This document shows, one piece after another, positions 15,407-39,994 of a stretch of 64,000 nt of DNA; the first letter of the stretch is position 1, and each line of letters begins with the position of its first letter. The translations under genes and the position numbers were made by a program. Source of the DNA: Shewanella phaeophyticola (GTDB lineage: Bacteria; Pseudomonadota; Gammaproteobacteria; Enterobacterales; Shewanellaceae); the NCBI RefSeq assembly GCF_025398315.1, contig NZ_JAODOQ010000001.1, positions 62,001-126,000 on the forward strand, read 5' to 3'. The notes beneath the pieces are model-generated. The model did not search any database, had not been told where the DNA came from, and was given only the letters and a program-made list of their open reading frames with translations.

Positions 15407-15446
15407 GCCAGTGTGGTGAAATTGGTAGACACACGGGATTCAAAAT
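15407..15446 (+). pseudogene. 5' half of the disrupted tRNA-Leu(CAA)
   Basis: The acceptor strand GCCAGTG, a D arm with GTG/CAC stem and the 5' anticodon stem CGGGA are followed by TTCAAAA (anticodon CAA). The sequence then leaves tRNA and becomes island sequence, so the 3' anticodon stem no longer pairs. The missing half is at 39939-39994. Joined there, the two halves make a perfect class II tRNA-Leu: GCCAGTG pairs CACTGGT, CGGGA pairs TCCCG, and the T stem is GCCGG/CCGGC. Confidence 0.9.
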
Positions 15447-15458
15447 TCGCAGCGTGTA
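15438..15458 (+). other. attL core and integrase core-type site
   Basis: The core ATTCAAAAT (15438-15446) is followed after 4 nt by AGCGTGTA (15451-15458). This octamer is the exact inverse of TACACGCT at 39927-39934, which sits 4 nt before the right-hand core. The same core-plus-octamer recurs at 15729-15749. Confidence 0.85.
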
Positions 15459-16020
15459 CTCAACATAACTCAGTAAGTTGCTGATTGAATTAGTTATTAG
15501 ATATTTATTAACGTTCAAAACCCTTGCAAAGATTTGCAAAGTTTTTTAGATTGATAATTATGTGCCTGTTCAATAACATTAGTTACCAACAGGGTTAAAA
15601 ACACATAAATTAAGTACAATAAAATTGGTTTGGTTTTGCAAAGATATTTGGTCTTTTTAGATAACTTTGCAAAGCTAAATATAGCTTCAAAGCCTTTGCC
15701 TGAGTGATGAAATTGGTATACATGGGGGATTCAAAATTCGCAGCGTGTACTCAACATAACTCAGTAAGTTGCTGATTGAATTAGTTATTAGATATTTATT
15801 AACGTTCAAAACCCTTGCAAAGATTTGCAAAGTTTTTTAGATTGATAATTATGTGCCTGTTCAATAACATTAGTTACCAACAGGGTTAAAAACACATAAA
15901 TTAAGTACAATAAAATTGGTTTGGTTTTGCAAAGATATTTGGTCTTTTTAGATAACTTTGCAAAGCTAAATATAGCTTCAAAGCCTTTGCCTGAGTGATG
16001 AAATTGGTATACATGGGGGA
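15439..16020 (+). repeat. Two identical tandem 291-bp units bounded by the integration core
   Basis: Bases 15439-15729 and 15730-16020 appear identical. Each begins in the core (TTCAAAA), contains four copies of TTGCAAAG (first unit: 15524, 15534, 15636, 15667), and ends with the 5' half of the island's own tRNA-Leu (GCCTGAG...GGGGA). The boundaries coincide with the recombination core, so integrase-mediated exchange between cores can create or remove units. Confidence 0.9.
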
Positions 16021-16073
16021 TTCAAAATCCCCTGCTTCACGGCGTGTCGGTTCGAGTCCGACCTCAGGTACCA
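15989..16073 (+). tRNA. tRNA-Leu (anticodon CAA), island-borne and intact
   Basis: Acceptor GCCTGAG pairs CTCAGGT. The D stem is ATG/CAT, the anticodon stem GGGGA/TCCCC encloses TTCAAAA (anticodon CAA), a long variable arm marks class II, and the T stem is GTCGG/CCGAC with loop TTCGAGT. CCA is encoded (16071-16073). The stems differ in sequence from the disrupted chromosomal tRNA-Leu, so this is a separate gene brought by the island. A terminator follows. Confidence 0.93.
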
Positions 16074-16080
16074 TTATTTG

Positions 16081-16114
16081 AAAGCCCTGTTCTTAATTGA
16101 ACGGGGCTTTTTTT
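16081..16114 (+). terminator. Terminator of the island tRNA-Leu
   Basis: The stem AAAGCCCTGTTC/GAACGGGGCTTT (one G-T pair) with loop TTAATT is followed by a T-run, 8 nt after the tRNA CCA end. Confidence 0.85.
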
Positions 16115-16203
16115 ATGCTTATAAATCAATGGTAAATACAGAGGTCTGTTACTTTCAACCGCTAGAGGGTAAAAATTATCTATAACGCTTAATTAGGTAG
16201 ACT

Positions 16204-16542
16204 TTATCCAGCAGTTAGGTCTTTTATTGTTGATGTCTTTCCATTTTCCATTACTGAACGTATACCATTATCTCTACTCGATGTGCTCGAATACATTTGG
16301 CTTGTGCCAATGATTTGATGATTAGCCGCTTTAAGGTTGAAATAGGGTTTATCATTCTTCGCTGTTTCTTTCGCGAAATTAGCTTCACTTTGGGAGTTTG
16401 TTTGAACTGAGCTAATACCATTATTGGCACCAGCCTTAGCAGTGTAGAGTTCACTTGTTAATATGACTTCGCCATTGCCTGCCTTTAATACAAACTTAAA
16501 CTGGCCATTACTGCTTTTACTTAATTCATACCATCCTGACAT
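16204..16542 (-). CDS. YegP/DUF1508 family protein
   Basis: The 112-residue protein consists of two tandem DUF1508 repeats: SGWYELSKSSNGQFKFVLKA...ISSVQTN at about 1-50, and KPYFNLKAANHQIIGTSQMY...IRSVMEN at about 57-105. This is the YegP arrangement. The fold is a small alpha/beta domain of unknown function, common in phages and islands. A GGGAG ribosome site precedes the ATG. The gene sits alone just inside the island's left end. Confidence 0.85.
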   Translation of the reverse strand: MSGWYELSKSSNGQFKFVLKAGNGEVILTSELYTAKAGANNGISSVQTNSQSEANFAKETAKNDKPYFNLKAANHQIIGTSQMYSSTSSRDNGIRSVMENGKTSTIKDLTAG

Positions 16543-16668
16543 TATTTAGCTCCCTAATCGTTACGACACTGCCTATTCATAGCAAGGACAATTCCCTGCT
16601 TGAATATTAGTCTAGTTGGTTTCACTTATTTTGGAATATTAATTTGGTCGTATTTTGAGCATTTACGG

Positions 16669-37220: not shown

Positions 37221-38119
37221 TTTTAACTCCTGAATTTATTACACATCTTATCATTGAGATACAAACACCAGAAGTATCCTGATGAATCTAAATACAACCA
37301 CGCTGCTTGTAGCTGGCTTGCCATTCTTTAAACAATTCAGAAAGCCTCGCTTCATTTTGCTTACTGCCAGAAGTCTTTTTATCTTTTACTCTTTGTTTGG
37401 CTTTTCCTAAGTCAATACCTGATAGTTCTTTACTGTACATCTTGGGCGTTACATGACTGTAATGCTGTTCAATCATGGCAATGCTCGTTCCACATTGTTT
37501 AGCCAATACCTCTATGCTTACTCCAGCCAGTAGTTGCCAAGTAATATAAGTATGGCGGAGTGAGTAAAGCGTTCTAACGCCATGAGGAGACTCCTTTAAA
37601 TCTGCTTTGATTAATGCTCTATCAAAGTTTTTGGTAAGTGCATTAGTTTGGTTGCCATCAAGCAAACAAAATAATTTGTCAGTAGGCTTCCTATTAGGAA
37701 ATCGCTCTCTCAATGTTTGAATACTTGAAAAGATTTCATCGCGACAAACAACTTCTCTTGTACCCGTATGCTTGATTGTTTTCCCTTTTCTTACGGTGAT
37801 ATAAAAAATAATGTTATGAGCATTAGTATCAATATGTATATCACCCCAAGTGAGACCTTCCATTTCAGTTCCTGGTCTAATACCTGTATAAACGGCAAAT
37901 TCCATATAATCGAGCAGTAGTTCGCGAATTTGGCGGGTTTTCTCCCTTACACTGTTTTCCTCTAAATGTATGACGGCATCAAAAACCTTTTCATACTCTT
38001 CAGGAGTAAAATGTGCTCTTCGCTGCGCACTAGCACCTTTTGTGGAAAGTTGTGTTATGGCTTAATGAATCTGTACACCGATATGGGGTAAACTCCCCTT
38101 AAGATAAATTGGTGTAAAA

Positions 38120-38422
38120 ATGATGACAACTCAACCTACTTACTCAACAGAGTTCAAAATTGATGCGGCTAATCTTGTGATTAAACAAGGCTATAGCGTT
38201 CGAGAAGCTTGTGAAGCAACAGGCGTAGGCTCAACAGCTATAAGACGTTGGGTTGCACAACTAAAAGAAGAATTTAGTGGTATTACACCATCAACAAAAG
38301 CCCTGACGCCCGAACAAAAGAGAATTCAAGAGCTTGAGGCTCAAATTAAAAAGATTGAATGGGAGAAAGATATCCTAAAAAAGGCTACCGCTCTCTTAAT
38401 GCAAGACAACATCAAACGATAG
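38120..38422 (+). CDS. IS3-family transposase OrfA
   Basis: The 100-residue protein has an HTH ([20 protein letters not shown]...IRRWVAQ) and a zipper-like helix ([20 protein letters not shown]). The slippage run AAAAAAG is at 38377-38383. Confidence 0.93.
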
Positions 38423-39264
38423 CGTTAATTGAGTCACTATCAAGAGAGCAAAGTATTGTTAAACAACTATGTCAGTTGTTTGAAGTGCCACGAAGTAGCT
38501 ATCACTATCACCTAAAACAGCGCGGTATAGTTAACCCTGATTATCAGCGATTATGCCAGCAAGCTGTTGAGATACACAGTGATAGTCGAGGCTCTGCGGG
38601 AGCTAGAACAATTGCAGGTCAATTAAATCAGCAAGGCGAAAATATCGGTCGCTATAAAGCAGCAAGCTTAATGAAGCATGCAGGCTTGGTGAGCACTCAG
38701 CTCAGAAAACATCGATACAAAATAGCTAAAGGCGAGTCAAAAATAGCTCCTAACCTGCTAAAAAGACAATTTAATGTTAACGCTAAAAACAAGGTTTGGT
38801 GTGGCGATGTCACCTACATTTGGTCTGGAACAAAATGGTTATATTTAGCGGTAGTCATGGATTTATATGCGAGAAAAATAGTTGGCTGGGCTTGTTCTGA
38901 TAGCCCGAATACAGATTTGACCTGTGCAGCTTTAAGAATGGCGTTTGAAAGCCGTGGATGGCCTAAAGGTCTATTATTTCATTCAGACCAAGGTTGTCAC
39001 TACAGCAGTCTTCAGTATCGACAAATGCTCTGGAAATACCAAATCAATCAGAGCATGAGCCGTCGAGGTAATTGCTGGGATAATGCCGTAATGGAGCGTT
39101 TTTTTAGGAGCTATAAAACGGAATGGATGCCCAAGAATGGATATCAACATTTTGATGAAGCAAAACATGATGTGCTGAACTACATATTGAAACATTACAA
39201 TACAAAACGCGGGCATAGTTACAATAATTATATGACCCCAACGGCAGCTGAAATGGCGGCATGA
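38377..39264 (+). CDS. IS3-family transposase OrfB (DDE integrase)
   Basis: It is read in the -1 frame from the A-run. It has an N-terminal HTH-like region ([17 protein letters not shown]) and an rve catalytic core with Asp in WCGDVTYIW, Asp in FHSDQGCHY and Glu in [10 protein letters not shown]. It is intact to AAEMAA at the C-terminus, so this IS looks active. Confidence 0.93.
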
Positions 39265-39864
39265 TAATAACTCCCCTAAGCGTGTACAGATTTACTTGAC
39301 CACATCATTGAGGTACTTGAGACACCAGCATCCATTTGCATTGAACTGCCTCTTTAAAAACCTGTTGGAAGGCAGCATTATGGTTAAGTAACGTTGATTT
39401 TGCAGGGGCTCGGCCAAGAAGTTCTTCGCGCCATATATCAAATTCGCTTAACTTGTCGCTATCAATCGAGGTAATGTAAATACGGTCGAAAAAAGGAATA
39501 TGGTACTTTCTTAAAAGTTGAATGTAGGCGGTATATTTATCTACTAATGGATCCTTATCTTTGGCCTTACTTTTATTAATTAAAACTTGCATGGCATTGA
39601 TGGCTTTTTCAGCCACATCCCTAAAACGTTTAGAGCTTACCAACTGATCATTATCAGCCATGAATTGGTATTCTATTTGAAGTCGATAAGCCATGGCGAT
39701 GGCTTTCTCTTTTTCTTTTTGCTTAGTCGCTTTAGAGTGCCACTTACCAGCGACTTTGATACGGGCATACCAACGCTTGCTATTGTCTTGTAGGTAGACG
39801 TATAGTTCGTCTGAGATATCGTGTCTTTCAACCTGTTTGGTCATAGTATGATTCTGAATTGGTT

Positions 39865-39883
39865 TTGCAAAGAATTTGCAAAG
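39865..39883. other. Right-end TTGCAAAG pair (candidate arm-type integrase sites)
   Basis: Two direct copies of TTGCAAAG (39865 and 39876) lie between the integrase start and attR. The same octamer occurs four times in each 291-bp unit at the left end, including a longer shared TGGTTTTGCAAAGA. Confidence 0.65.
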
Positions 39884-39926
39884 TAAGATATTTATATCGT
39901 AACTAACTGATAATTAACAGTGGTTT

Positions 39927-39947
39927 TACACGCTATATATTCAAAAT
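39927..39947 (+). other. attR: core-type site and core
   Basis: TACACGCT (39927-39934), 4 nt, then the core ATTCAAAAT (39939-39947), which runs into the tRNA-Leu 3' half. It mirrors the attL arrangement exactly. Confidence 0.88.
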
Positions 39948-39994
39948 CCCGCGCCCTTAAAAGCGTGCCGGTTCGAGTCCGGCCACTGGTACCA
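39939..39994 (+). pseudogene. 3' half of the disrupted tRNA-Leu(CAA)
   Basis: It begins in the anticodon loop, then has the anticodon stem TCCCG, long variable arm, T arm GCCGG-TTCGAGT-CCGGC, acceptor CACTGGT and CCA. There is no 5' half or tRNA-like promoter beside it. It completes the 5' half at 15407-15446. A terminator hairpin (AAATCAGCC...GATTTTTTG) follows. Confidence 0.9.

Follow-up and report, generated by a model that had tools for sequence, protein, structure and literature searches.

The split tRNA-Leu(CAA) gene and its island

An island of 24.5 kb lies between the two halves of a leucine transfer RNA gene, tRNA-Leu(CAA), in the genome of Shewanella phaeophyticola. The window analysed here is the 64,000-nucleotide stretch of contig NZ_JAODOQ010000001.1 (positions 62,001 to 126,000) that holds the island and its flanks (Table 1). 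An original prediction, made from the letters of the window, held that the two halves once formed a single gene, that neither island junction rebuilds a tRNA, and that a complete, different tRNA-Leu with the same anticodon lies just inside the left end. These statements were borne out. The orphan halves pair with one another along the whole acceptor stem (7/7) and anticodon stem (5/5), and both are cut at the 7-nucleotide anticodon loop, TTCAAAA, which thus forms a direct-repeat core inside the tRNA gene at either end of the island. Both junctions were checked and neither yields a tRNA. The complete island tRNA found by ARAGORN is identical to the host 5' half at 32 of 39 positions, differs from it in the 3' half as well, and has its own upstream and downstream DNA.

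Table 1. Features of the island and its ends, in window positions.
Feature	Position	Strand	Remarks
Predicted native tRNA promoter	15337..15364	+	TTGCCA-16-TATAAT, 11/12 positions; 42 bp before host 5' half
Orphan 5' half of host tRNA-Leu(CAA)	15407..15445	+	attL core TTCAAAA at 15439-15445
Left-end unit 1, 291 bp	15446..15736	+	holds TTGCAAAG arm-like sites; ends in island-type tRNA 5' half
Second orphan 5' half	15698..15736	+	of the island tRNA's type
Left-end unit 2	15737..16027	+	identical to unit 1; ends at anticodon loop of complete island tRNA
Complete island-borne replacement tRNA-Leu(CAA)	15989..16073	+	ARAGORN
Terminator-like hairpin	16080..16111	+	after replacement tRNA
Backbone: DUF1508, DUF2787, RadC-like, DUF6641-like, AAA ATPase (IetA-like)	16204..20138	-	DUF6641-like match just below cut-off
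Second tyrosine recombinase, XerC/D-like	20135..21061	-	308 amino acids
UmuD/UmuC-like cargo pair	24230..25672	+
Type II restriction-modification pair	33647..35773		C5 methylase (-), Eco47II-type endonuclease (+)
Three tRNA-Val(TAC)	36254..36544	-
Island integrase gene, C-terminal part	37288..38050 (about)	-	integrase domain; severed by IS3-family element
IS3-family transposase genes	38120..39264	+	within integrase gene
Island integrase gene, N-terminal part	39305..39844	-	179 amino acids; integrase domain; by attR
Two TTGCAAAG arm-like sites, right end	39865..39883	+
Orphan 3' half of host tRNA-Leu(CAA)	39940..39994	+	attR core TTCAAAA at 39940-39946

At one end of the island a tyrosine integrase gene runs leftward from 39844, with integrase domains in both of the pieces into which it is broken. 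The gene is full-length in relatives; four such integrases, 423-427 amino acids long, share 53-78% identity with the island pieces. NCBIfam gave the island integrase no name. Because an IS3-family element interrupts the gene, this copy of the island probably cannot excise by its own enzyme. Twelve of the 15 TTGCAAAG sites in the window sit at the two ends of the island and, we infer, look like arm sites of a tyrosine integrase.

The locus was also compared with relatives lacking the island. Two such Shewanella genomes (G034 and G008; G numbers denote genomes) carry one uninterrupted tRNA-Leu(CAA), to either side of which the two flanks of the window align. The integration model, against which the original prediction would have counted the same split in an island-free relative, stands. 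That prediction also named intact copies of the split gene type and further CAA tRNA-Leu genes as what would undo its argument for host dependence; the genome search returned neither. A CAA tRNA-Leu 3'-half pattern matches twice in the genome, at the island tRNA and at the orphan half, and no other intact gene of this kind was found with that pattern or with ARAGORN around tRNA hits. When ARAGORN was run on stretches around 94 covariance-model tRNA hits outside the window, it reported tRNA-Leu with anticodons TAG (two), TAA (three) and GAG (one); covariance-model scoring covered 150 of 376 candidates, in a genome (G000) rated 91% complete. Judged from the sequence, the island is very likely to have been inserted by a tyrosine integrase in the anticodon loop of tRNA-Leu(CAA), and its own tRNA is predicted to take over decoding.

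Recurrence of the arrangement in other genomes

The arrangement was sought in S. phaeophyticola and 35 further Shewanella genomes, one of which (G029) gave no match, and in genomes reached through the integrase. For the latter, full-length relatives of the integrase were aligned and the alignment was used to fetch 77 loci; tRNA matching beyond the Shewanella set took in 50 of these, plus four Shewanella genomes. The group is marked by an orphan 5' half, a complete tRNA of the same isoacceptor close behind, and an orphan 3' half by a relative of the 424-amino acid integrase, all of which are present in the window. Eight of the 36 Shewanella genomes have a complete CAA tRNA-Leu behind an orphan 5' half, and 30 of 40 further regions, picked for tRNA matches in the genomes reached through the 50 loci, show the same design. 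This makes 38 islands, in Shewanella and further gammaproteobacteria, in which tRNA-Leu(CAA) is split and replaced. Chance is excluded for a layout that recurs in this way, and the claim that the element destroys its target tRNA and pays with a replacement gains the backing of all 38. The genome G066 was not counted, since a decayed 3' half, and no island DNA, comes after its 5' half.

The distance from the first 5' half to the complete tRNA is 106-543 bp (median 138), the largest values including tandem cases like the one in the window. A host 3' half was taken for 33 islands, and in 29 of these it pairs fully with the host 5' half. In 37 of 38 cases no intact CAA tRNA-Leu other than the island's own was matched, the exception being a metagenome-assembled genome (MAG; G079) that has a second. 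If host 5' and island 3' halves were joined, one or more stem pairs would be missing from the hybrid in 24 of the 38. The island tRNA is identical (85/85) in Shewanella waksmanii, a Thalassotalea and two Colwellia, the left ends of these islands being 71-83% identical in the four pairs compared. Thirteen island pairs were chosen because their tRNAs are alike; identity in these is 98-100% for the tRNAs and 68-98% for the left ends, suggesting that the tRNA is under constraint. At L311, in Shewanella insulae (G061), a second tRNA-Leu with an anticodon that reads CAG by sequence stands just before the replacement tRNA-Leu(CAA). A complete CAA tRNA-Leu with native upstream DNA was seen at L111, L114, L131 and L309 (G011, G014, G027 and G064).

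Ahead of 39 of the 40 Shewanella sites tested, of which 35 come from the 36 Shewanella genomes and five were reached through integrase loci, stands a promoter-like pair, TTGCNA and TATAAT, the latter matched with up to one mismatch (no shuffled control was made for this count). At 33 sites it stands 39-62 bp before the first tRNA piece, and the preceding 140 bp are free of arm-like sites. Between the orphan half and the island tRNA a terminator-like hairpin was found in 2 of the 38 islands (shuffled mean 0.65, range 0-2), and within 130 bp after the island tRNA in 24 of 38 (without a control). With few hairpins before the island tRNA and many after it, read-through from the native promoter into the island tRNA is likely.

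In some Shewanella the native gene seems to have been lost while an island tRNA stayed on behind the old promoter. In four genomes (G006, G020, G023 and G035) the native promoter is followed at 128-175 bp by the only CAA tRNA-Leu matched, and the native 5' half gave no match. Arm-like sites lie between promoter and tRNA in G006 (one), G020 (two) and G035 (two); the weakest case is G023, where one site appears only under a pattern that was loosened after this genome had been looked at, the stricter pattern giving none. The DNA following the tRNA in G006 and G020, compared by eye, is nearly that of the S. phaeophyticola island. In two further genomes (G025 and G062) the split gene is itself of this settled make-up, at distances of 134 and 108 bp and in both cases with two arm-like sites; an island tRNA that had already settled was therefore probably struck by a later island. 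The upstream flank in G062, Shewanella algicola, is 94.9% identical to that of the window over 528 bp. Such nested islands suggest serial replacement.

The same design was found at a second target, tRNA-Phe(GAA). Fifty-seven of the 77 integrase loci, picked mainly by presence of the integrase start, were tested for an adjoining tRNA half, and in 50 a tRNA 3' half adjoins the integrase gene. A pattern search placed a CAA tRNA-Leu 3' half within 1200 bp of the integrase start in 34 loci, at 77-129 bp in 29 of them; inspection of the remaining 23 by eye added 14 tRNA-Phe 3' halves and two diverged Leu halves. Thirteen genomes were examined for the Phe target, and in nine of them tRNA-Phe(GAA) is split and a complete copy begins 166-176 bp after the start of the last orphan 5' half. 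All intact tRNA-Phe genes found in the nine, counted by 5' halves with at most three mismatches, are island-borne: eight genomes have exactly one, and a MAG (G111) has two, each behind its own orphan half. One extra 3'-half-like match without a 5' half was present in G091. Of the remaining four, two (G076 and G101) carry a complete tRNA-Phe but lack an orphan 5' half, G105 has a 5' half that reaches the end of its contig, and no 5' match turned up in G082. The two Shewanella genomes G000 and G034 have two tRNA-Phe genes each. Neiella marina (G070) carries two islands in a row, with two orphan 5' halves, one complete tRNA and two 3' halves, each by an integrase gene. On an integrase tree of 54 rows, from which L149 was left out because its stretch translated to 31 residues, the Phe target requires at least two changes.

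Mechanism, alternatives and host dependence

We propose that attP crosses with the anticodon loop of the target, the 7 nucleotides serving as the overlap. Rather than restoring a 3' half, the island would bring in a whole tRNA gene, situated (except in tandem cases) some 110-350 bp behind attL and oriented like the host promoter, which probably reads through into it. The stems of a gene carried whole need not match those of a diverged host tRNA, so mispaired hybrids would be avoided and diverged hosts could be entered. The island tRNA would keep the loop and with it an attachment site, which may have given rise to the repeat in this window and the nested islands elsewhere; islands would succeed one another because each replacement tRNA is again a target. 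In some lineages the native half would finally be lost, leaving the island tRNA behind the native promoter. It is probable that this family of islands, found in Alteromonadales and neighbours, makes itself indispensable by tRNA replacement, including replacement of the only tRNA-Phe of the cell, and thereby drives serial turnover of tRNA-Leu(CAA) and tRNA-Phe, with foreign tRNAs settled behind native promoters. These would be tRNA-targeting integrative elements of a type that splits and replaces its target, rather than splitting and restoring it.

The left end holds a feature that the original prediction overlooked, a perfect tandem repeat (291/291) of two units, each beginning at the island's left end and reaching as far as the anticodon loop of an island-type tRNA. 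Host-type and island-type 5' halves differ except in the last 11-12 nucleotides before the joint, which places the joint in or near the loop; since the repeat joints fall at the loop of the island tRNA, this loop, too, probably serves for attachment. A crossover between attL and the loop of the island tRNA, by way of sister chromosomes or a small circle, would be the simplest explanation. A duplication by slippage or homologous recombination, with no part played by the integrase, seems unlikely to us: the identity of the units, which makes the duplication recent or homogenised, and the short homology common to tRNA 5' halves would suit it, yet the switch from host to island type takes place within the last 11-12 nucleotides up to the core, a short distance for ordinary homologous recombination. 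Tandem 5' halves also recur at tRNA-Leu in G068 and G092 and at tRNA-Phe in G070; the units in G068 are not identical (244/253), and the case in G070 comes with two integrase genes and two orphan 3' halves. The genome G064 resembles G065 minus its left end, as expected from a deletion between attL and the island tRNA; such a deletion would mirror the duplication in the window.

One alternative is an ordinary restoring island, with the complete tRNA as the restored gene and the orphan 5' half as a later duplication. Islands catalogued by Islander are described as restoring the tRNA they disrupt (PMC4383910), integration is said to rebuild the target tRNA (PMC8371274), and some Shewanella do have a complete tRNA and orphan 3' halves without an orphan 5' half. 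For the window, such an origin is very improbable, because the complete tRNA differs from the split gene in both of its halves and has flanking DNA of its own, whereas it is the orphan 5' half that stands behind the native promoter. Still less credible is a locus with tandem tRNA-Leu genes, one hit by an ordinary island and the other merely its neighbour. Although tRNA genes are often in tandem, and in G061 another tRNA-Leu does stand just before the CAA gene, insertion into a tandem gene would not produce a complete tRNA between the 5' half and the island body, nor island arm-like sites ahead of it, and the two island-free genomes have one CAA gene at the site. The count of 38 islands is no separate test of the tandem explanation, since the islands were defined by this placement.

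Several observations weigh against the split-and-replace reading. The excess of arm-like sites in the window (15 against 6.5 expected, with as many in none of 100 shuffles) stems in part from the repeat, five left-end sites being counted twice. Several genomes are drafts or MAGs, and the statement that the island holds the only intact copy rests on patterns. An equally paired hybrid is possible in 14 of 38 islands, so a whole gene is not always needed for pairing. In eight genomes (G011, G014, G021, G027, G064, G073, G085 and G101) there is a complete CAA tRNA-Leu with orphan 3' halves and no orphan 5' half, and restoring or resolved forms therefore exist, in the genus and beyond. No relative of the island integrase was found beside the 3' half in G019, no orphan 3' half was matched in G025, and by pattern and eye 7 of the 57 integrase loci have no clear tRNA half adjoining. 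The replacement may also not be vital in S. phaeophyticola, where three tRNA-Leu(TAA) genes may cover UUG.

This last point bears on the suggestion that the host would come to depend on keeping the island. It holds up insofar as the island carries the sole intact CAA copy found in the genome; a strict need is not upheld, because the three tRNA-Leu(TAA) genes should read UUG by wobble. What the gene complement predicts for this host is at most a likely fitness dependence. Disruption of leuX in Escherichia coli affects FimB and fimbriation, according to a review (PMC11316696).

Dependence would be stricter at the second target. tRNA-Phe is the sole reader of UUU and UUC, so the nine hosts with a split tRNA-Phe should depend on the island, and strict dependence is predicted for them. 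If the replacement is functional, loss of the island is tied to loss of the tRNA, with no toxin needed; imprecise loss of a tRNA-Phe island would be lethal and precise excision harmless; and entry into hosts with diverged tRNA genes would be explained, given the 24 mispaired hybrids among 38. The islands would also provide a concrete way for a core tRNA gene to be replaced horizontally, a process of which several stages are apparently on view.

Described elements and the content of the island

These islands break the stated rule that integration into a tRNA gene rebuilds the target. They resemble Islander class A, as outlined in PMC4383910, in their tyrosine integrase, their crossover in the anticodon loop and the tRNA fragment that marks the far end. 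There, however, the fragment makes the split gene whole again at one junction; here both junctions lack a restored gene, and a complete, separate tRNA gene is carried inside the island. With no tRNA at either junction, the island falls outside the Islander definition of a restoring island, and island finders that expect a restored tRNA would probably misplace its left end or miss it. Archaeal elements of the pTN3 type likewise target tRNA genes and make unusual use of a promoter for the recombinant tRNA, but they restore an uninterrupted tRNA, and the accessible portion of the review describes no extra complete one (PMC8371274).

Closest are integrative and conjugative elements (ICEs) of Pasteurellaceae of the ICEHin1056 type (ICEPmu1, ICEMh1 and ICEHpa1), which insert in the anticodon loop of tRNA-Leu; one source describes the tRNA-Leu as disrupted at either end, with an intact copy on the ICE taking its place (PMC6028734). 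Another account gives ICEHpa1 one truncated and one intact copy with 56-bp repeats, which, unlike the arrangement here, reads as ordinary restoration (PMC7438473). The two descriptions disagree on restoration, and the comparison here is with their published descriptions; the ICEHpa1 account makes it doubtful that these ICEs are a full precedent. They are moreover conjugative, with integrases of 30 and 36 kDa, whereas the full-length integrases of the present family have 423-427 amino acids and no transfer gene appeared in the 20 open reading frames (ORFs) scanned. Apart from these ICEs, which come near, no description of a split-and-replace element was found in the portions of the open-licence literature that could be searched, which is no proof of its absence from print.

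The Pfam scan covered 20 of the 31 ORFs of at least 80 amino acids in the island. Among these 20, no conjugation or replication core (relaxase, tra, parA/parB, dnaB) and no phage structural domain was detected; one PsiB match, in the DUF2787 protein, was far below the cut-off. Viral contigs gave a single partial match (23% identical), 29 phage records matched with identities of at most 24% among the ten matches listed, and the best match in a plasmid collection was an Alteromonas record at 56% identity. With no close relative in the viral, plasmid or phage collections, identification as a prophage, phage satellite or plasmid was rejected.

The backbone is partly common to the islands of G002, G005, G026 and G031. 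Proteins 60-86% identical to the XerC/D-like recombinase adjoin the island tRNAs of G002, G005 and G026, where the recombinase accompanies the AAA protein. The trio of tRNA-Val genes duplicates a portion of the host's own tRNA-Val cluster, with 98.6% identity along 295 bp. Between 25733 and 32213 lie two ORF pairs of equal size (97 and 245 amino acids each), the second of them IS3-like; a helicase gene lies between the pairs, together with a protein that matches the candidate defence model PDC-S71 over the model's C-terminal part.

Beyond the orphan 3' half, at 40086-40499, there are three more copies of the tRNA-Leu 3' end, each with a terminator-like stretch and spaced 144-172 bp apart, which we take to resemble the rtT repeats after E. 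coli tyrT. The right flank continues with a large predicted protein (40681-44343) that has weak matches to protease families and a GlyGly-CTERM sorting signal.

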